Shown here piece by piece: positions 9,108 through 17,533 of a stretch of 64,000 nt of DNA; the stretch's first letter is position 1; every line of letters begins with the position of its first letter. The notes under the pieces are model-generated. The model was not told the DNA's origin and ran no database searches. It worked only from the letters and a program-made list of their open reading frames with translations. The DNA lies in the IMG/VR virus record IMGVR_UViG_3300020385_000006, positions 62,001 to 126,000 of that record; one strand, written 5' to 3'. This DNA comes from a virus. Position numbers and translations under genes: made by a program.

Positions 9108-11029
9108 TATTCTAATCCTGTTATATCATATAATTTATTATCATTTTGAGGTCGTTTTTTTCCTAATACAATACAAGACATAATTACATTAGTATATAAT
9201 GGTGATTGATAATCTGGGTCTATTTCCCATGGTGTTTCGTTATCCCAATCAAAACCTAAATCTGTAATTATCATTGGTGTTGCGTTAAATAATTTTCCTA
9301 TTGTTACATCAACTTTTTGTCCGTAAAATCCTTCTGATCCATATACTGGATGTGTCATTCGACCTAAATTTTGTAGCTTATTCCATATGGCTTTAAAGCC
9401 ATCCGGGGAAGCAGTATCGCCAGATTTACCTTGTTCCGCTACCACTTTAAAATCTAATGATATTGACCGTTCAAATGCAGAATATTGATATCGAGAATCT
9501 GCTCGTCCTTGATCCGCAGTGCCTTCCCAGCTAGGAGCAAATTGATCAGACAATGTTCCTAGATATGCTTTTAATATTACTTCATGATCATCACTTTTAA
9601 ATTTAAAATCTATTAACGATTTTTCTGGATCTTTATCAATTTTATTTAACAATTCTAAATTAGTACCAAAATTACTTTTGCCTTCATATGATTCACTTTT
9701 ACCATCCTTTGTTCTAATTATTGCGGTAGTTCCGATTGGCCTGACAGGAATATCATTGTATGGAAGTAATGTATAATCTAAACCCTTTTCTTTTTCTGTG
9801 TTTTTAGCAATACCACCACCCTTAGGTCCTTTGAAAGGACGTGTAACTTCAGTTTCTCCAAATTCACTTTTGATTTCATTAGACGACTCAGTTGCATCTT
9901 GTTTAGTTATGAATGGTTTTTCATATGAATACCGATGATATACATAATCTGCTGGAAGATTTGGAAATAAACGATTTAATATGGCATTAATTTCAGTTAA
10001 GGTACCAGCTCGTGTTCCAATCAATTGTGTTGCAAGACTAGTGTCTTCATATCTTCTTATAATAGTTCCACCAATACCTAAAACCGATCCAGGACCTCCT
10101 ATTTTGGAACTTAATTGAGAAATTTGTGAACCAATTGATATTGAATTATTTGAACTATTCCCGTCAAAGTTTTTAAATAAATTTTTTCTTAATGATGCAT
10201 GTAGATCTGTCTTTGTTAATTCACTGACTAAACCACCTATAAGAGCATTTGATGCTCCAGCGTGTCTATTAATATGTACTATTGGCGCTAATGAACCTAA
10301 TGATAATGGATTATATATTCTTGTTTCTGCTTTTGGATTCATTAATTGATATCCGACTTGTTTAGCTAGGAATCCTATACCTTTTGGTGATGCTAAAAAT
10401 TTACCTATCCTAGCTGTATCTATCAATGTTCTGTTTGTGGCGGTTAATATGCCGCCTCGAGGTATATCAAATGCTCCACTTAATCCAGGGCCTACATTTA
10501 TTCCCCAATGCTGTGGATCAGATGATCCATCTCTTTGAATACCTCTTAAAATTAAAGGATGTTTTATATACGAATTTGGAGTAGCATCATCTCGTAGATT
10601 AAATTTATTGTACATATCATCAATTGGAGAATTGGTGGTATATGTATTTGCTAATCCTGCTTTTTTAAATTTAACTCCGTATTGATCACCGTATTTAGAT
10701 TCTGGAGTAAATCCTATTCTTACTTTATCAAATTCATGAATCTGTCCTTCTGGACCTATAGGAAATTTTGATCCGGCTCCTAATTGAGTATTTCTACTTG
10801 CAAAACCTCGACCCGAATATGTAACATCATCTATTAAAAACGAGTCCGCGGCTTGTAATTGACGACGACTAAATAATTTACTTTCATTATCATACACTAA
10901 CACATTGGATGTGCTTAATCCATCCGACGAAAAGTTTGTATCAGTTTTATCACGATTCGGTTTGTAATTCATGGCTTGACCTTTTTTGCCATAAAATGAT
11001 AAATCAGATTTTAGATCCATTAATGCCAT
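9107..11029 (-). CDS. Baseplate tube-initiator-like protein (gp48/gp54-like, 640 aa)
   Basis: Probable baseplate protein that forms the platform for tail-tube polymerisation. The C-terminal 180 residues hold the tube-initiator pattern: VILKAYLGTLSDQFAPSWEG, then YQYSAFERSISLDFKVVAEQ, a helix FKAIWNKLQNLGRM and a terminal barrel with PMIITDLGFDWDNETPW. In T4 gp48 and gp54 such domains share the fold of the tube protein. The first 430 residues are a large Gly- and Ser-containing extension not seen in T4, so this protein is nearly twice the T4 length. It begins with an ATG preceded by GGAGAC and overlaps the tape-measure stop. It is possible that it replaces both gp48 and gp54. Confidence 0.7.
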   Translation of the reverse strand: MALMDLKSDLSFYGKKGQAMNYKPNRDKTDTNFSSDGLSTSNVLVYDNESKLFSRRQLQAADSFLIDDVTYSGRGFASRNTQLGAGSKFPIGPEGQIHEFDKVRIGFTPESKYGDQYGVKFKKAGLANTYTTNSPIDDMYNKFNLRDDATPNSYIKHPLILRGIQRDGSSDPQHWGINVGPGLSGAFDIPRGGILTATNRTLIDTARIGKFLASPKGIGFLAKQVGYQLMNPKAETRIYNPLSLGSLAPIVHINRHAGASNALIGGLVSELTKTDLHASLRKNLFKNFDGNSSNNSISIGSQISQLSSKIGGPGSVLGIGGTIIRRYEDTSLATQLIGTRAGTLTEINAILNRLFPNLPADYVYHRYSYEKPFITKQDATESSNEIKSEFGETEVTRPFKGPKGGGIAKNTEKEKGLDYTLLPYNDIPVRPIGTTAIIRTKDGKSESYEGKSNFGTNLELLNKIDKDPEKSLIDFKFKSDDHEVILKAYLGTLSDQFAPSWEGTADQGRADSRYQYSAFERSISLDFKVVAEQGKSGDTASPDGFKAIWNKLQNLGRMTHPVYGSEGFYGQKVDVTIGKLFNATPMIITDLGFDWDNETPWEIDPDYQSPLYTNVIMSCIVLGKKRPQNDNKLYDITGLE

Positions 11030-13386
11030 TATCGTCTCCTATATGAATCTGTTGTTCGTATTGCTTGGGCTACAACTCTTCCGTCCATTTCCACTACAGT
11101 ACCGACTGATATCAATTCACGTAACAAAGCATTTGTTGTTTCCAATGCTTTAACTACGCCATCACCTCCGCCACCGCCATTGGCTCCATGTGAAGGGCTC
11201 ATTGAAACGCCATCATTTTTTGTGCCTTGGAATATTCCACCTTCGCGAGGTGATGCTACAACCGGACCGCCGTTTGGATCAATACTTAGGTCACCTGTTT
11301 GTTGTGCTTTTTTGTACATTCCAAATGCTCCTCCAATTGTTGCAATTGCTATTGGTATTCCAATTCCAAATGGTATTTGAGCAAATGTTGAAAATATAGA
11401 ACCAACTGCTTTGGCCATTGATGCAGCTGCTCCGGCTAGGGCTTTTCCTATACCTGTAGTCATTAATGCATTACCTACACCTAAAGCTACATTTTTTGCC
11501 AATGTAATTGCTAGTCCGGCATTTTCTGCTACATTCATTGCTGTTTGCCTTAAAAAGGCCAGGCCTCTTGTTACCAAAGATTTCTTTTCTTCTACGCCTT
11601 GAGCTTGTTTAGTTCCTAACCCTATAAAATCTAAAGCATTTTGAGCTATTTGTTGTGCTTTATTTTTTGCTCCTATTATGAATCGCAGCTTTTGTTGTTT
11701 AGTACCCATTACTTGCGTTAAATAATTATTTAGTAATAAAGCACCAATAGTACCAATTATACCTTGTACGACAAGACTAGCTTTTTTGAACTGTTCTATA
11801 GCCGCAACCGCTAATGTAATTGGTAAAAATGCAAGTTTTAATGTAAATCCAAGTGCTTTAAATATAGGTGATAATGCAGAAAATACTTTTACAAGTGCTT
11901 CACCTGCAGGAACTAATGCTTTTGTTAAATCATCTTTTATCGCGGAAAATGAAGCACTTAATTTATCCGTTGCCTGTTGTTGAGCCAATCTATCTTTTAA
12001 CTCTTCCGAGCTCATACTTTTTATTTCTGCTGCAGATAATCCCATGTTTGCCATAGCAGCTTGTTGGTCTGCAGTTAAGTCTCCTAACTTGCTTTGAATT
12101 GTTAATGATTTTTGTAGTTCATCAACACTCATACCAGTTGCTTCCGCTAATTTTTTACGAGCTAAATAACTCATGTTATCAAATTCTGCAATACTACCAA
12201 CTTCGCTTAACACGGCTGCTGTTGCTTCTCCAATTTTTCCTTGCAATGCCAATTGCCTAGCAGAATCAAGATTCATTTGTTTACCAGTTAATGCCTGTAA
12301 TTCAAATTGAGCAGATATTGAGTCTTCAAATTTTAATAATCCTTCTGCTACAGATGCCATTGTTTTTAAACTAACACCTAACTTGGCAGCCTGTACCGCA
12401 GCTTTTTGTAACGCTTTAACATTACCTCCAAAGAATTTGGCAACGTCTTTTGCATTCGCTGCTATATCCGCGGTAACTGTACCTACTGATACTCCAGCTT
12501 TTAAAGCATCGGCTGATACATCTTGTAATGCATTTGCTGCTTCGGTTCCGCCTAGGCCCATTCGCATAAATTCATTGGTAACGCCTGAAGCTGCTTTAGC
12601 ACCTATTCCAAAGGCTTTACCTATTTCTGCTACATTACCGGCTTGTTTTGCCGTTAACATGTTGGCTATACCAAATTCTTTAACAGTTGCTTTTTGAACA
12701 TCTAAAATATCTCCGGAAGTTGCTAATTGTGATCCAAATGACTTTGCCACTGCCTTTGCTTCATTTACCATTGCCTTAGATTGCTGCAATGTAAGGCCGG
12801 TTGCTTCGGCTACGCCTTTTGCTTTCTTTTCAAAGTCTACAAATACCATGGCTAAGCCGGCTGCGATTGCAGCAATAATAGTAAACGGATTGATAAGTCC
12901 TATTATAGATGAGTTAAATGCAGACATAGCTTGTCCAAGAGTGCCCTTCTTTGCTATTACTGCTCCAGCTTTATTTAAACTTGTAGTAAATGCCTTGCCT
13001 AATTTATCTATTCCAAATGCCTTTATTAGCGCTGCGCCGCCAGGTAATTTTTTTACAAAATTTTGTACATTTGTAACTAAATCTTGAGCTTGATCATTTA
13101 TTGCACCCATTTGTTTAGAAATGGCATTATTTAATTTTTCTTGATCTTTTAGTTTTTTAAGTACAGTTTCGTACAATTTTGCTTCAGCTGCTAATTCTGT
13201 GTTTCCAGCTTTTTTAGCAGCATTACTTAATTCAATTGTTTTTGTTAAATCTTGTTGAATTTTAAGATGTTGAGAATTCATGCCAATTAATTTATCGGCA
13301 TTGGCAATAGTTTGTTTATTATACTGTTCTACTTTATCGCCTAGGCTTGCCCACTGATCTTCTAATTCTTTTGGATCTTTTGCCAT
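11029..13386 (-). CDS. Tail tape measure protein (785 aa)
   Basis: Sets tail length and is ejected at infection. The N-terminal 100 residues are coiled-coil (heptads rich in Lys, Glu, Leu and Ala). Two hydrophobic helices follow, near SSIIGLINPFTIIAAIAAGL (about 153-172) and, late in the protein, GIGIPIAIATIGGAFGMY (about 683-700), as usual for tape measures that insert in the cell membrane. The middle is an Ala-rich helical region. The Gly-rich stretch near the end (NGGGGGD) precedes a short C-terminal domain. Position after the tube and chaperone genes fits. Length predicts a tail near 110-120 nm by the usual 0.15 nm per residue rule; that is inference. Confidence 0.9.
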   Translation of the reverse strand: MAKDPKELEDQWASLGDKVEQYNKQTIANADKLIGMNSQHLKIQQDLTKTIELSNAAKKAGNTELAAEAKLYETVLKKLKDQEKLNNAISKQMGAINDQAQDLVTNVQNFVKKLPGGAALIKAFGIDKLGKAFTTSLNKAGAVIAKKGTLGQAMSAFNSSIIGLINPFTIIAAIAAGLAMVFVDFEKKAKGVAEATGLTLQQSKAMVNEAKAVAKSFGSQLATSGDILDVQKATVKEFGIANMLTAKQAGNVAEIGKAFGIGAKAASGVTNEFMRMGLGGTEAANALQDVSADALKAGVSVGTVTADIAANAKDVAKFFGGNVKALQKAAVQAAKLGVSLKTMASVAEGLLKFEDSISAQFELQALTGKQMNLDSARQLALQGKIGEATAAVLSEVGSIAEFDNMSYLARKKLAEATGMSVDELQKSLTIQSKLGDLTADQQAAMANMGLSAAEIKSMSSEELKDRLAQQQATDKLSASFSAIKDDLTKALVPAGEALVKVFSALSPIFKALGFTLKLAFLPITLAVAAIEQFKKASLVVQGIIGTIGALLLNNYLTQVMGTKQQKLRFIIGAKNKAQQIAQNALDFIGLGTKQAQGVEEKKSLVTRGLAFLRQTAMNVAENAGLAITLAKNVALGVGNALMTTGIGKALAGAAASMAKAVGSIFSTFAQIPFGIGIPIAIATIGGAFGMYKKAQQTGDLSIDPNGGPVVASPREGGIFQGTKNDGVSMSPSHGANGGGGGDGVVKALETTNALLRELISVGTVVEMDGRVVAQAIRTTDSYRRR

Positions 13387-13398
13387 TACATTACTTTA

Positions 13399-13665
13399 TT
13401 ATTTTTCCCATGGAAATTTTGCATACTTTGCAGCTGATGGTTTTTTACCATATTTTTTTTCAAAATCTTTAATCTGCTTTTTAAGCTCTTTGCCATGGTA
13501 TTCTATGCCCTGAACTGCAGACTGTACTTCTGGGTCATCTTTCATTATCTTAAGTGCTTTTTTAACTTTTGATTTAAAAAAGAATTTAAGTAAAGTAAGA
13601 CCTAATCCTTCATTAAGTTCATTGATTTGATTTAACGCACGTTTTTCAAATTTATTTGTAGACAT
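13399..13665 (-). CDS. Small basic helical protein next to tape measure (88 aa)
   Basis: Unknown function. The protein is Lys-rich and helical (LLKFFFKSKVKKALKIMKDD, about 24-43; HGKELKKQIKDFEKKYG, about 57-73) and ends FPWEK. Helical amphipathic character and position directly before the tape measure would suit a tail assembly factor or a tape-measure partner. A weak TATAAATAT-like element (AATAAATAT) lies at 13683-13691. Confidence 0.6.
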   Translation of the reverse strand: MSTNKFEKRALNQINELNEGLGLTLLKFFFKSKVKKALKIMKDDPEVQSAVQGIEYHGKELKKQIKDFEKKYGKKPSAAKYAKFPWEK

Positions 13666-13690: not shown

Positions 13691-13981
13691 TCAACGTCTT
13701 TTCGTTTTAGGGGCTTTAGCGTGAGATTTGGAACGCATATTTTTCATGGCTTTATCATGTTCTTTGTTCTGATCATCAAATAATTTATTTAATTTACGTA
13801 TATAATAGGATCTCATATATACAGGCATATTATATACTTCAGTATATGAAAATGCACCTTTACTGTGATACGTTAAATCGAATATCTGATCTGCTTTATG
13901 TAATTTATAGCTCGGCGTCAGGCCAAAAAAAGTCCAATCCGATGGCAACCGGACTGCGAAAGGTATCACCGGACTCTCCAT
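13691..13981 (-). CDS. Overlapping extension of gp26-like gene, probably made by frameshift
   Basis: This open frame overlaps the end of the gp26-like gene by 77 bases in the +1 frame. The useful part is from DWTFFGLTPSYKLHKADQIF (about 15-34) through the basic end HAKAPKTKRR. The internal ATG at 13981 has no Shine-Dalgarno sequence. The two frames meet at a run of seven T (minus strand, 13931-13925), where the zero frame reads TTT TTT TGG and the other reads TTT TTT GGC. This is the arrangement of tail assembly chaperones G and GT placed just before the tape measure. In T4 the corresponding place is held by separate genes 26 and 51. Frameshift production is inferred; independent translation remains possible. 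Confidence 0.65.
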   Translation of the reverse strand: MESPVIPFAVRLPSDWTFFGLTPSYKLHKADQIFDLTYHSKGAFSYTEVYNMPVYMRSYYIRKLNKLFDDQNKEHDKAMKNMRSKSHAKAPKTKRR

Positions 13982-14765
13982 CCGGTACTTGAACAGATAA
14001 ATCTATTTCTGGAGTAATTGTTTTAAGATGTATTCTAATAGCTCTGGAATCTATAGCTAATAATTCATTATCAATAAATTTACGTACTTTATTGTTATCT
14101 GTTTCTCCATCAACTGATATAATAACATGTTTCAATGTGGTAGTTAATGTGGCATTGCGTTTTAATTTAGCTAAACCTTTTAATTCAGCATCTATTTTTC
14201 GTTGTTGACCTTGAGTTAATAAACGTAATGCCACTACTCGTTTACTGGCAGGTAATTCTAAAGGAAATTCATTTTTTCCGGATGTATGGGCAGACCAATC
14301 AATTTCTGCTTCTTGTAATTTTGTTAAGTCAACATTTACCTTTTGATCCTCACCTGTATTTGGATTTGTAGCAGTTATTTCATAATCTTTACCATAACCT
14401 AATACTCTAGCTGCAATCATGATTGCATTTTTATCACATAACAATAAATCGTTATAATCAACCGGAGTTACAATCAATGCTTTAAATAATTTGTCTAATA
14501 CAACTCCTTGTTTAATAAATGATTGATTAGTAAGAATATCTTCTTCCTTTGCTGTCATATATTTCATTTCAATCTTTCCAGAACTTAAAGGATGTCCTTC
14601 AGGGTATAATCTACCTTTTGAAGGTAATTCTACTATTTCAGTTGGAAAATCGTATACTGTGGTATCATCAGTGGCTTTGGATTCATATTTTGCAGTTGCA
14701 ATATCTTTTAATTGTTTATCCGATAACGGCTTTGTTGGATAATCATCGTTAACTTGTTGTGACAT
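13905..14765 (-). CDS. 26-like: Baseplate hub assembly / tail chaperone protein, gp26-like (286 aa)
   Basis: Matches the T4 gp26 baseplate family pattern: VELPSKGRLYPEGHPLSSGK (about 47-66), then IEMKYMTAKEEDILTNQSFI (67-86) and the following LDKLFKALIV. The later residues are alpha/beta with TQGQQRKIDAELKGL. It ends GLDFFWPDAEL and stops at 13905. It lies between tail tube and tape measure, the standard place of the tail assembly chaperone, and has AAAGGAA before the ATG plus a TATAAATAT element at 14793-14801. The 3' end overlaps the extension frame at a heptamer T run. Family assignment is good; whether it acts as a hub part or as a chaperone is not settled by sequence. Confidence 0.8.
   Translation of the reverse strand: MSQQVNDDYPTKPLSDKQLKDIATAKYESKATDDTTVYDFPTEIVELPSKGRLYPEGHPLSSGKIEMKYMTAKEEDILTNQSFIKQGVVLDKLFKALIVTPVDYNDLLLCDKNAIMIAARVLGYGKDYEITATNPNTGEDQKVNVDLTKLQEAEIDWSAHTSGKNEFPLELPASKRVVALRLLTQGQQRKIDAELKGLAKLKRNATLTTTLKHVIISVDGETDNNKVRKFIDNELLAIDSRAIRIHLKTITPEIDLSVQVPDGESGDTFRSPVAIGLDFFWPDAEL
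13923..13934 (-). promoter_or_regulatory. Candidate slippery site (T7 run) for +1 or -2 frameshift
   Basis: On the minus strand GAC TTT TTT TGG lies in the gp26-like frame. Slippage by +1 or -2 on the seven T enters the 13691 frame exactly. The T run is 13931-13925, eight codons from the zero-frame stop. Confidence 0.55.
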
Positions 14766-14856: not shown

Positions 14857-15345
14857 TTAGAATTGTAATATTGCATAATCATATTTCAATGTTAATTCAA
14901 TTTGAACAGGATCTTCTGTTGCCCAATCCATATCGCCAAATGTTGCTGCTGATATAAATGCTCCTTTCAAAGTCCATTCTTCAACTTTGTCCCCAACCGG
15001 ACCTAAAGTATTAAAAGTAATATCCTTTTTATAGAAATCTGAATATCCATCTCTACCTGTCACAGACTCATGATGTAAACGTACCCATTCCATTACTGCT
15101 TGCGCTCCGGATGGAACAACTGGATCATATAATGTTACGGTAACATCTTGCCATCTTGTCTTACCTTTCAATTTACGTTCAACATTAATATGATCAAGAA
15201 TAACTTCTCCTTGGTCTAATGATGGACGTGATGCGGCTTTAACTAGGTATGAAGGGATACCTTCAATATACATAATGAACCGGTTTGCCATTTTTGGTTC
15301 ATATGCTGTATAAAATATTTCAGTTGGGTCAAGTAATTCTGCCAT
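14857..15345 (-). CDS. 19: Tail tube protein, gp19-like (162 aa)
   Basis: Major subunit of the inner tail tube. Length is close to T4 gp19 (163 aa). The start MAELLDPTEIFYTAYEPKMA and the following NRFIMYIEGIPSYLVKAASR lead into the tube-barrel pattern, with WQDVTVTLYDPVVPSGAQAV (about 65-84), and the end is QIELTLKYDYAILQF, the usual closing strand of tube proteins. It is directly downstream of the sheath gene, has GAGGAAAA before its ATG, a TATAAATAT element at 15364-15372 and a strong terminator after it, all consistent with high expression. Confidence 0.92.
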   Translation of the reverse strand: MAELLDPTEIFYTAYEPKMANRFIMYIEGIPSYLVKAASRPSLDQGEVILDHINVERKLKGKTRWQDVTVTLYDPVVPSGAQAVMEWVRLHHESVTGRDGYSDFYKKDITFNTLGPVGDKVEEWTLKGAFISAATFGDMDWATEDPVQIELTLKYDYAILQF

Positions 15346-15388: not shown

Positions 15389-17533
15389 CTATTCCGGAAA
15401 TGATGCTCCAGTCGGCATAATATTAAAGTCAACTACAATAAATTCAGCCGTTTTAGCAGGTTGAAGGAATATTTGTCCTCGCATTTCATTTCTATCAATT
15501 ACATCCGGAGTATTATTTGTTTCATCCATTACCACTTTAAACGCATACAACCCTTGTCTTTGCTGTATATTTTCAAAATATGGATTCACAATACTTAAGA
15601 ATCTGTTTCTAGTCGCTGCCGTATTATTTTCAAATATCAAGAATTTAGTTGTACTAGCAATAAATTTCTTAGATGCTATTAATAATCTTCGCACATTTAC
15701 TCTATCCAATGCAGATGCTTTTTTCTGTAATGTTTTTTGTCCAAATACGGTAACACCTGCATTAGGGAACGTTGCAATTGGATTCACATTACTTTCATAT
15801 AATGTATCTCTATTAGCATGAGTTAATTTTCTTTCTGTCTGAACTGCAATATCAATTCCACCTCTATTTAAACCAGCTGGTGCAAACCATGGAGCGGCTA
15901 CTCGATCATTAAATGCATATACACCTGGTATCACTGTAGATGCAGGAACCCAAACATTTTTTCCTAATTCATTATCAGGTATTTTAACCCATGGCCAATA
16001 CTCAGCTACATAATTTGAATCTCTTGATTCTGCTTTAGCAGTTGCTTGCGATATTGATTGTCCATATTCAACTGGATCGATTACCAAGAAACAATCACCC
16101 CGATCCTCTACCATACTCACTGCTTCTGTTAACACTGTAGCATGGTTTGGATGATTATCGACTAGACCAGGCAATGACAATAAATTGATATCATATTCAT
16201 CTTGATTTTTTAATAAACGAATTGCATCAATATATGCATTTTTACCATTAGCTGCTACACCTAAATTATATCCCTGTACATTGGCATCAGTTACATTTTC
16301 ATAAAATTGCTGTGGATGCTGTAAATTACCATCCGATGCTCCGGAGAATGAACCGGAACTAACTACAGGTAAACTATCTTCAGATCCGGCAACTCTTTTG
16401 TTTCCATTTGCATCTAAATAATTTAAAGTATTTTTTGCAACTGCAATTCTAACATATTTAGATCTATTTGGGAATGACCCAGATAATTGAAGGAATGGAT
16501 CGACACCACCTGCCCCTCTAACGGTAAATACTTGATCGCCAATAACTTTTGCAGCATAATTTGATGAATTAGGATCTAATGTTAAATTATTATATTGCTC
16601 AACAATGGATTTTCTATTACTTGTATCATCACCTCTTCGTATAATTAAATTGAAAGTACCTTTGTTTTCATTTTTAGATGTCACTTCCCATCTAATGTTA
16701 TTTTCAGATCCGGATGCTAATGAATTATTTGTTCCTTGAGGTCCAACACTATTTTGGTCAGCACCTTCAGATAATGTTGTTAATGTAAATACTGGTTCAG
16801 CTGTTGATGAATTAGCACCACCTGCCATTGTAAATTTATTCGTTCCGGCTGTAGTTCCAAATACCGATGGAGCTGCGGCAGATGCAGTTGCAAATACAAT
16901 TCCATCTGGTCCTGTTCCTAATGCTGAACCTGAAAGTTGTAATATTGCGCCGGCATTGTCGGCATTAATACCTGTCAATGTCCCGTTAGCAACCACTGCA
17001 TCAATTTCTGTTGCCAAAGCTGCTGCTGTATTTGCAATTGCTGCTCCTTTTGCAAAGAATCTAATTGAATCATCTGATGCATCAACATTTGGTGTTGTCT
17101 GTGCTACAAATGTTACTTCAGTTGTTCCTTGCGTAATTTTATACGATTCATTACTTGCATGAGTTACTAATGTTAATGATCCAGTTGAACGAACTGTTCC
17201 AGTTTCTACTGCATTGTTAACAGTAGCAGTAGCTGGTGTCATTTCTGCTCCAATACGTACAACTGTTAAAGTATCAGCATATTTCAAATACTCTTGTGCT
17301 GCATAATTAGTTAAATATTTATACGAATTTTCATATGCTCCAGAACCGGATGAAAACTTTCCACCAAATATATTAACGAATTCTGAATAACTTGATACCA
17401 CAGTAGGTATTCCAGTTGGGCCTTTAGATGTCGGTCCTACTACGGCAGCTCCAATTGCTTGGACTCCAGCTGGTAGAAACGATTGGTCAATTTCTTTAGT
17501 AAAAACGCCAGGCGATACTATTTTTTCAGCCAT
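15389..17533 (-). CDS. 18: Tail sheath protein, gp18-like (714 aa)
   Basis: Contractile sheath subunit. The N-terminus SPGVFTKEIDQSFLPAGVQA (about 6-25) and the following AVVGPTSKGPTG are the sheath signature. A variable, Ser- and Thr-rich inserted region occupies about residues 100-290. The C-terminal region has the conserved sheath core: the EYWPWVKIPD segment, VWVPASTVIPGVYAFND, then AAPWFAPAGLNRG, KTLQKKASALDRVNVRRLLI and the final NFNIMPTGASFPE-like end (VDFNIMPTGASFPE). It is about 55 residues longer than T4 gp18. AGGAG precedes the ATG and a TATAAATAT element lies at 17564-17572. High-level late expression is expected. Confidence 0.95.
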   Translation of the reverse strand: MAEKIVSPGVFTKEIDQSFLPAGVQAIGAAVVGPTSKGPTGIPTVVSSYSEFVNIFGGKFSSGSGAYENSYKYLTNYAAQEYLKYADTLTVVRIGAEMTPATATVNNAVETGTVRSTGSLTLVTHASNESYKITQGTTEVTFVAQTTPNVDASDDSIRFFAKGAAIANTAAALATEIDAVVANGTLTGINADNAGAILQLSGSALGTGPDGIVFATASAAAPSVFGTTAGTNKFTMAGGANSSTAEPVFTLTTLSEGADQNSVGPQGTNNSLASGSENNIRWEVTSKNENKGTFNLIIRRGDDTSNRKSIVEQYNNLTLDPNSSNYAAKVIGDQVFTVRGAGGVDPFLQLSGSFPNRSKYVRIAVAKNTLNYLDANGNKRVAGSEDSLPVVSSGSFSGASDGNLQHPQQFYENVTDANVQGYNLGVAANGKNAYIDAIRLLKNQDEYDINLLSLPGLVDNHPNHATVLTEAVSMVEDRGDCFLVIDPVEYGQSISQATAKAESRDSNYVAEYWPWVKIPDNELGKNVWVPASTVIPGVYAFNDRVAAPWFAPAGLNRGGIDIAVQTERKLTHANRDTLYESNVNPIATFPNAGVTVFGQKTLQKKASALDRVNVRRLLIASKKFIASTTKFLIFENNTAATRNRFLSIVNPYFENIQQRQGLYAFKVVMDETNNTPDVIDRNEMRGQIFLQPAKTAEFIVVDFNIMPTGASFPE

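Follow-up and report, generated by a model that had tools for sequence, protein, structure and literature searches.

Vladimirov, Gautam and Davidson (2022, Virology 566:9-15) are said to have described tail assembly chaperone (TAC) genes in T4-like phages, some of them frameshifted and T4 with two genes, and the abstract of that work reportedly names T4 genes 26 and 51. According to an extract of one paper citing it, some T4-like phages dispense with the frameshift and carry a short gene and a long fused one; according to an extract of another, the TAC-N genes of T4-like phages contain poly-T slippery signals for a -1 shift. T4 was still listed as an exception in extracts of Atkins (2016). The same extracts describe gpG and gpGT of phage lambda, a two-form chaperone encoded just upstream of the tape measure, in which the C domain is added by a -1 frameshift at the gene end (Atkins 2016). 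The locus reported here is likewise arranged; it differs from lambda in the direction of the shift and in the shift site, and the likeness is known from layout. A preliminary description of this DNA had drawn the analogy with G/GT chaperones, which the comparison across relatives bears out.

The window, that is, the whole stretch of 64,000 nucleotides that was analysed, comes from a 127,430-base IMG/VR record in which each half of the chaperone is present in one copy. The features around the gene are as follows.

15389 to 17533, minus strand: tail sheath protein, 714 aa (ORF; similar in DNA to the Immutovirus gene annotated as tail sheath)
14857 to 15345, minus strand: tail tube protein, gp19-like (phrog_4542, E 1.7e-25; PF06841 below cut-off)
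13905 to 14765, minus strand: zero-frame gene, TAC-N (gp26/gp51 family), 286 aa (ORF, PF12322, phrog_150, model)
13920 to 13934, minus strand: shift site GAC TTT TTT TGG CCT (conserved YTT_TGG or TTT_TAC in relatives)
13905 to 13907, minus strand: stop codon TAA of the zero frame, 18 nt 3' of the P-site codon
13691 to 13924, minus strand: +1-frame extension, TAC-C, GLTPSYKLHK..., 77 codons and stop TGA (conserved family, +1-frame substitution pattern)
13399 to 13665, minus strand: 88-aa ORF in the gap that separates chaperone and tape measure
11029 to 13386, minus strand: probable tape measure protein, 785 aa (by position and length alone)

The layout that had been claimed, namely tube, chaperone, overlapping extension and tape measure, was found, the chaperone gene lying between the tube, assigned by profile, and the tape measure, assigned by position alone. 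No family match was obtained among Pfam and PHROG profiles for the tape measure ORF, and the 88-aa ORF had no Pfam match above the cut-off and no family match. A small ORF lies 3' of the chaperone at about the same place in one relative, L061.

On the minus strand, the 3' end of the gp26-like gene reads GAC TTT TTT TGG CCT GAC GCC GAG CTA TAA. Both reading frames described earlier are present, the zero-frame ORF at 14765-13905 (286 aa) and a second ORF at 13981-13691 in the +1 (= -2) frame, and they do meet at seven T, 13931-13925. The P-site codon at the shift is TTT (13928-13926) and the A-site codon is TGG (13925-13923). The +1 codons start with GGC at 13924 and run to the TGA stop at 13693-13691, and the predicted fused product has 357 aa with the junction DFF-GLTPSY.

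We propose, with a probability of about 0.88 on sequence comparison, that a programmed +1 frameshift would make two proteins, TAC-N and TAC-NC, from the gene at 14765-13905. Most ribosomes would presumably keep to the zero frame, terminate at 13907 and release TAC-N of 286 aa. In a presumed minority, with tRNA-Phe in the P site on UUU and UGG in the A site, the tRNA would slip one base forward and re-pair on UUU, leaving UGG unread; reading would then proceed in the +1 frame (GGC CTG ACG...) to give TAC-NC of 357 aa. By analogy with lambda gpG/gpGT, for which these roles are established, the N part may wrap around the tape measure protein, and tail tube subunits may be recruited by the C domain.

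Relatives were collected by tblastn, which yielded 12 records in a phage collection and at least 599 stretches in IMG/VR, 80 of which were kept. These 80 loci, together with Immutovirus immuto, Mel-JY01 and the window, form a first set of 83. The zero-frame stop is reached in 82 of them (L049 is cut by the contig end), and in each of these 82 TGG-CC[T/C] lies in frame, with the same +1 frame open past the stop. The +1 arrangement recurs in two public phages that do not belong to the first set, Bacillus SP-15 and Rhodothermus RM378; scans with SP-15 or RM378 proteins alone matched only themselves, and a scan of genome contigs added one relative, L098. Using profiles built from diverse members, we extended the survey to 336 sequences, 331 of them with a TAC-N match, the five left out of the TAC-N scan being T4, three syn9 stretches and the window's own copy.

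Among 296 unique loci, a TAC-C profile match was found in the +1 frame in 199 and in the -1 frame in 14. Where no profile match was obtained, the -1 frame was open in 73 loci (cyanophage type and jumbo phages), and the rest were open in +1 (4), in neither frame (4) or cut (2). The 199 profile matches and six loci added by hand (L086, L313, L262, L005, L180 and L061) constitute a non-identical +1 set of 205 loci, represented by 107 at 70% identity and 33 at 50% identity. A complete in-frame TAC-C is missing in three of the 205, namely L005 and L180 (contig end) and L061 (lost in copy 1), and L262, counted as +1 by hand, has a C domain that did not match the TAC-C profile. In L281 (1766-2675), TAC-N is split across two frames near its start, be it by a sequencing error or by a genuine break.

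The shift codons are YTT_TGG or TTT_TAC in 198 of the 205 unique +1 loci. Counted as P-site_A-site pairs, TTT_TGG occurs in 154 loci, TTT_TAC in 37 and CTT_TGG in 7, while the seven other sites read TTT_CTA, TTT_CCC, TTT_CGT (2), TTT_CGG, TTT_CAC and TTT TTT_AGT. The cultured relative Immutovirus, a phage of Flavobacterium sp. LMO8, has AGC TTT CTT TGG. The A-site UGG/UAC is conserved across the +1 loci. TAC, never TAT, replaces TGG in the 37-locus subgroup, which comprises L233, L239, L183, L193 and others. At the site TTC TTT CGT of L087 and L262, the P- and A-site codons match the influenza PA-X +1 motif UUU_CGU.

As a P-site codon, TTC is absent across the 205 +1 loci; elsewhere in the 107 representative genes, Phe is encoded by TTT 638 times and by TTC 185 times (22% TTC). 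The probability of an all-TTT P-site arising by chance is 4e-12 if the sites are taken as independent, a figure that is a guide only, the loci being related, and 3e-4 with the 33 representatives at 50% identity. Where the residue is the same, the codon is also the same at a rate of 1.000 at the slip codon, compared with 0.470 (sd 0.134) gene-wide, a value measured on loci picked for an xTT codon; the count of P-site and A-site codons was not so picked. Codon conservation was not raised at codons -3 to -9.

A TTC in the P site would break +1 re-pairing, and its absence thus counts for +1. Of the two directions initially offered, +1 and -2, this re-pairing logic points to +1, and the frameshift itself is supported comparatively. 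Re-pairing after a +1 slip onto UUY is possible in 203 of the 205 loci as scored; L087 works by hand scoring and L089 via the preceding TTT. Slippage by -2 within the run of T, of the kind known from phage Mu, would instead give DFFFGLTPSY. In Mu, a gene of this type naturally shifts -2 (PMC3498833, in extract), the seven T of the window re-pair perfectly, and 192 of the 205 loci permit -2 re-pairing. However, such re-pairing is impossible in 12 loci (11 as scored and L087 by hand), where the context is TTC TTT, TTC CTT, GCT TTT or AAC TTT. Moreover, a -2 shift would tolerate TTT TTC before TGG, which was never found, and the natural in-frame fusion of L061 reads FFG. We regard a -2 shift as unlikely and retain +1 slippage.

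The T run measures exactly seven at 181 of the 205 sites and exceeds five at all but 17, where runs of 3, 4 and 5 T occur in 9, 6 and 2 loci, respectively, and the frames are unchanged. The exceptions seen in relatives include TTC TTT TGG, GCT TTT TGG and TTT CTT TGG. What homologues conserve is the overlap and the frame, as anticipated, and not an invariant run of seven T, the core being YTT_TGG or TTT_TAC. The constancy of seven T at 181 sites would also suit transcriptional slippage, in which RNA polymerase drops one U or adds two on the T run and produces a mixed mRNA pool, but the 17 sites without a run of more than five T keep the same frames, and a strict choice of P-site codon would be meaningless for a polymerase; we consider this reading very improbable. 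An error of sequencing or assembly, or a pseudogene, in what is truly one continuous gene could be suspected from the error-prone nature of homopolymers and from the continuous fused gene of L061. The same frames recur, however, across isolates as well as contigs of many projects (Immutovirus, Mel-JY01, RM378, SP-15 and 199 unique loci found by profile), which leaves this explanation close to negligible, and sequencing error is refuted by the sites that have the same frames without a T run.

The public records of Mel-JY01, SP-15, RM378 and Immutovirus annotate TAC-C as a separate gene, which could be translated from its own start by translational coupling, with no fusion. The window agrees with this to the extent that in its +1 frame ATG, GTG and TTG lie 57, 45 and 24 nt upstream of the first codon read in +1, so that the earlier argument from the lack of a start in the downstream frame does not hold in the window itself; it does hold in relatives. 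No ATG, GTG or TTG precedes the shift in the +1 frame in 74 of 197 loci (46 of the 107 representatives), a start is also absent within 20 codons past the shift in 38 of 197 (22 of 107), and in 28 of 197 the open frame extends no more than 12 nt upstream of the shift. The residue conservation of TAC-C begins at the shift. A second ORF with its own start, which would have spoken against a frameshift, is thus not what the relatives show, and we judge it to be highly unlikely.

Both frames are protein-coding: over 284 related pairs, which are not independent, differences in the extension at +1 codon positions 1:2:3 amount to 3229:2390:7001. In public records, C-domain pieces are annotated as separate hypothetical or gp51 genes at L002:8070-8180, L003:8181-8417, L085:3309-3428, L086:3201-3377 and L099:7248-7391, and this is likely a misannotation.

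We also searched for elements that could stimulate the shift. The zero-frame stop lies 9–24 nt past the P-site codon in 197 relatives and is TGA in 82, TAA in 82 and TAG in 33; given that its identity varies and that it lies at this distance, the stop is unlikely to act as a stimulus. Downstream folding had a mean z of -0.62, compared with -0.16 to -0.57 upstream (40-nt windows), only slightly under controls; with no clear structure in evidence, a downstream pseudoknot or hairpin was set aside as stimulator. An SD-like motif was present at the site in 7 of the 107 representatives and in 3–34 of 107 in controls, without excess, and an upstream SD-like stimulator was likewise set aside.

The base preceding the slip codons was then compared between the two directions. 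The window has C_TTT_TTT, which is not a -1 slippery heptamer, the open frame being +1. Among 180 +1 loci, a T precedes TTT TTT in one, and C, G or A in 179 (94 of 95 representatives). The preceding codon in the representatives is GAC in 28 and GAT in 0, AAC in 17 and AAT in 1, AGC in 11 and AGT in 0; elsewhere in representative genes the counts are GAT 1348 vs GAC 426, AAT 782 vs AAC 318 and AGT 210 vs AGC 120. From these codon counts, we read the missing T as probable selection against -1 slippage on U_UUU_UUU, although the +1 set may alternatively avoid an eight-T run. Every one of the 89 unique -1 loci (cyanophage type and jumbo phages) has a T ahead of its Phe codons; the site is T_TTT_TTC in 77, and in the other 12 the last two of three Phe codons were taken as the pair in the scoring.

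The -1 frame is also the open one in five named phages, whose hosts are Sinorhizobium, Rhizobium, Vibrio (two phages) and Pseudomonas. In a quick tree of 72 rows with weak deep branches, the directions cluster, with at least two changes of direction whose order this tree does not resolve. A -1 clade around the jumbo-phage record LR756511 (AAT TTT TTC and similar), with L095, L097, L266, L271, L275, L291 and relatives as members, has tree neighbours that shift +1, which suggests a switch of shift direction.

At the protein level, the window TAC-N matches PF12322 (T4_baseplate; E 1.7e-6, 28.3 bits, curated cut-off 24.5) and phrog_150 (E 2.3e-9). The Immutovirus and Mel-JY01 homologues match phrog_150, with no Pfam match, and TAC-N is annotated as baseplate hub in relatives. 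T4 gp26 and gp51 both match PF12322, and the extra C-terminal part of gp51 matches phrog_634, as do the cyanophage -1 extensions in 24 of 24 scanned (sample of 78). In hhalign comparisons of single pairs, +1 C domains align to cyanophage C domains with a probability of 86.7, and these to gp51 with 95.4. The direct alignment of +1 TAC-C to T4 gp51 is weak (probability 2.3), too weak for a direct profile link, and the connection is better made through the cyanophage TAC-C. A profile link of TAC-N to gp51 was also discarded (probability 34), though Pfam puts both in PF12322.

For structure prediction, N and C were modelled apart, a joint alignment of the fused window protein having aligned the C rows poorly and being left unused. 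The AlphaFold2 model of TAC-N has a pLDDT of 90.7, and Foldseek matches it to predicted phage gp26-type or baseplate-hub proteins, including that of SP-15. When the PDB was searched with the TAC-N model, none of the Foldseek matches reached E 0.001 (HK97 chaperone, E 1.8). The best of 604 VIA-aligned PDB chains was the HK97 tail assembly chaperone 2ob9, with modest values (Z 4.8, rmsd 3.0, 71 residues), and this likeness of the predicted model is suggestive only. The TAC-C model consists of three helices (pLDDT 85.8).

One relative, L061 (3974-5846), carries tandem TAC genes that are 43% identical over 232 residues. Its short copy ends NFFWPGN and keeps the usual slip site but lacks any reachable C domain, and its long copy continues in frame through ...PNFFGITADY (codons AAC TTC TTC GGA) into a normal C domain. 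This single case demonstrates that one chain can contain both N and C, and the junction N-F-F-G fits +1, whereas -2 predicts FFFG. In a scan for relatives of the long copy, no second in-frame fusion was recognised. The short and long genes of L061 parallel T4 genes 26 and 51 as an independent case. T4 does have these as two genes, as had been stated, but the pair, whose members are adjacent and divergent, lies beside genes 25 and 27 and not in the same way directly ahead of the tape measure. The pair 26/51 appears to be one of at least two gene-pair solutions.

The T4-like TACs belong to the same gene family, and the cyanophage gp26/gp51 and jumbo-phage homologues have homologous TAC-N and TAC-C with a -1 shift on T_TTT_TTC; here the shift would be +1 on YTT_TGG or TTT_TAC instead. 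The +1 set centres on Immutovirus, Mel-JY01 and environmental contigs, and RM378 and SP-15 are its more distant members. Overall, we lean slightly towards the view that one family reaches the same two-form product by -1 slippage (U_UUU_UUC), by +1 slippage (V_UUU_UUU_UGG/UAC or UUU_C) or from a short and a long gene (T4 and, independently, L061), the direction tracking one silent base before Phe-Phe and the bases after. The +1 sites would then be a widespread minimal bacterial class, with tRNA-Phe slippage, a sense A-site codon and no need of a stop codon, SD element or RNA structure. In this family, natural +1 sites in their hundreds occur alongside homologous -1 ones, so that a change of one silent base could test what sets the direction. 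Annotation is corrected as well, as hypothetical or gp51 fragments downstream of gp26 would be the C domain of one chaperone. No description of a +1 shift in this gene was found in the literature searched, the text of Vladimirov 2022 being outside that search, and the +1 class and the one-base rule seem to be new.

To our knowledge, few +1 frameshift sites have been described in bacteria and phages, and most of them depend on a stop or rare codon. The prfB +1 site is CUU_UGA. Listeria phage PSA shifts +1 at CCC_UGA (Atkins 2016, in extract). Both resemble the present sites in P-site +1 slippage, CTT_TGG being found in seven loci here, and both differ from them, as the A-site codon is here a sense codon, the stop lies 9–24 nt further and there is no SD-like excess. 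In influenza A, the PA-X +1 site is UCC_UUU_CGU, and a wider class of UUU_C +1 sites was predicted (Firth 2012, PMC3498833, in extract). The likeness lies in a P-site UUU that slips +1 onto UUY, and SagM-GXN1 and L262 have TTC TTT_CGT; the differences are that the virus is here a bacterial one, that the A-site codon is mostly UGG or UAC and that re-pairing would be onto UUU. Finally, halovirus HSTV-2, given as 'very likely +1' in extracts of Atkins (2016), would likewise have a +1 shift in the context of a myovirus tail-length gene.
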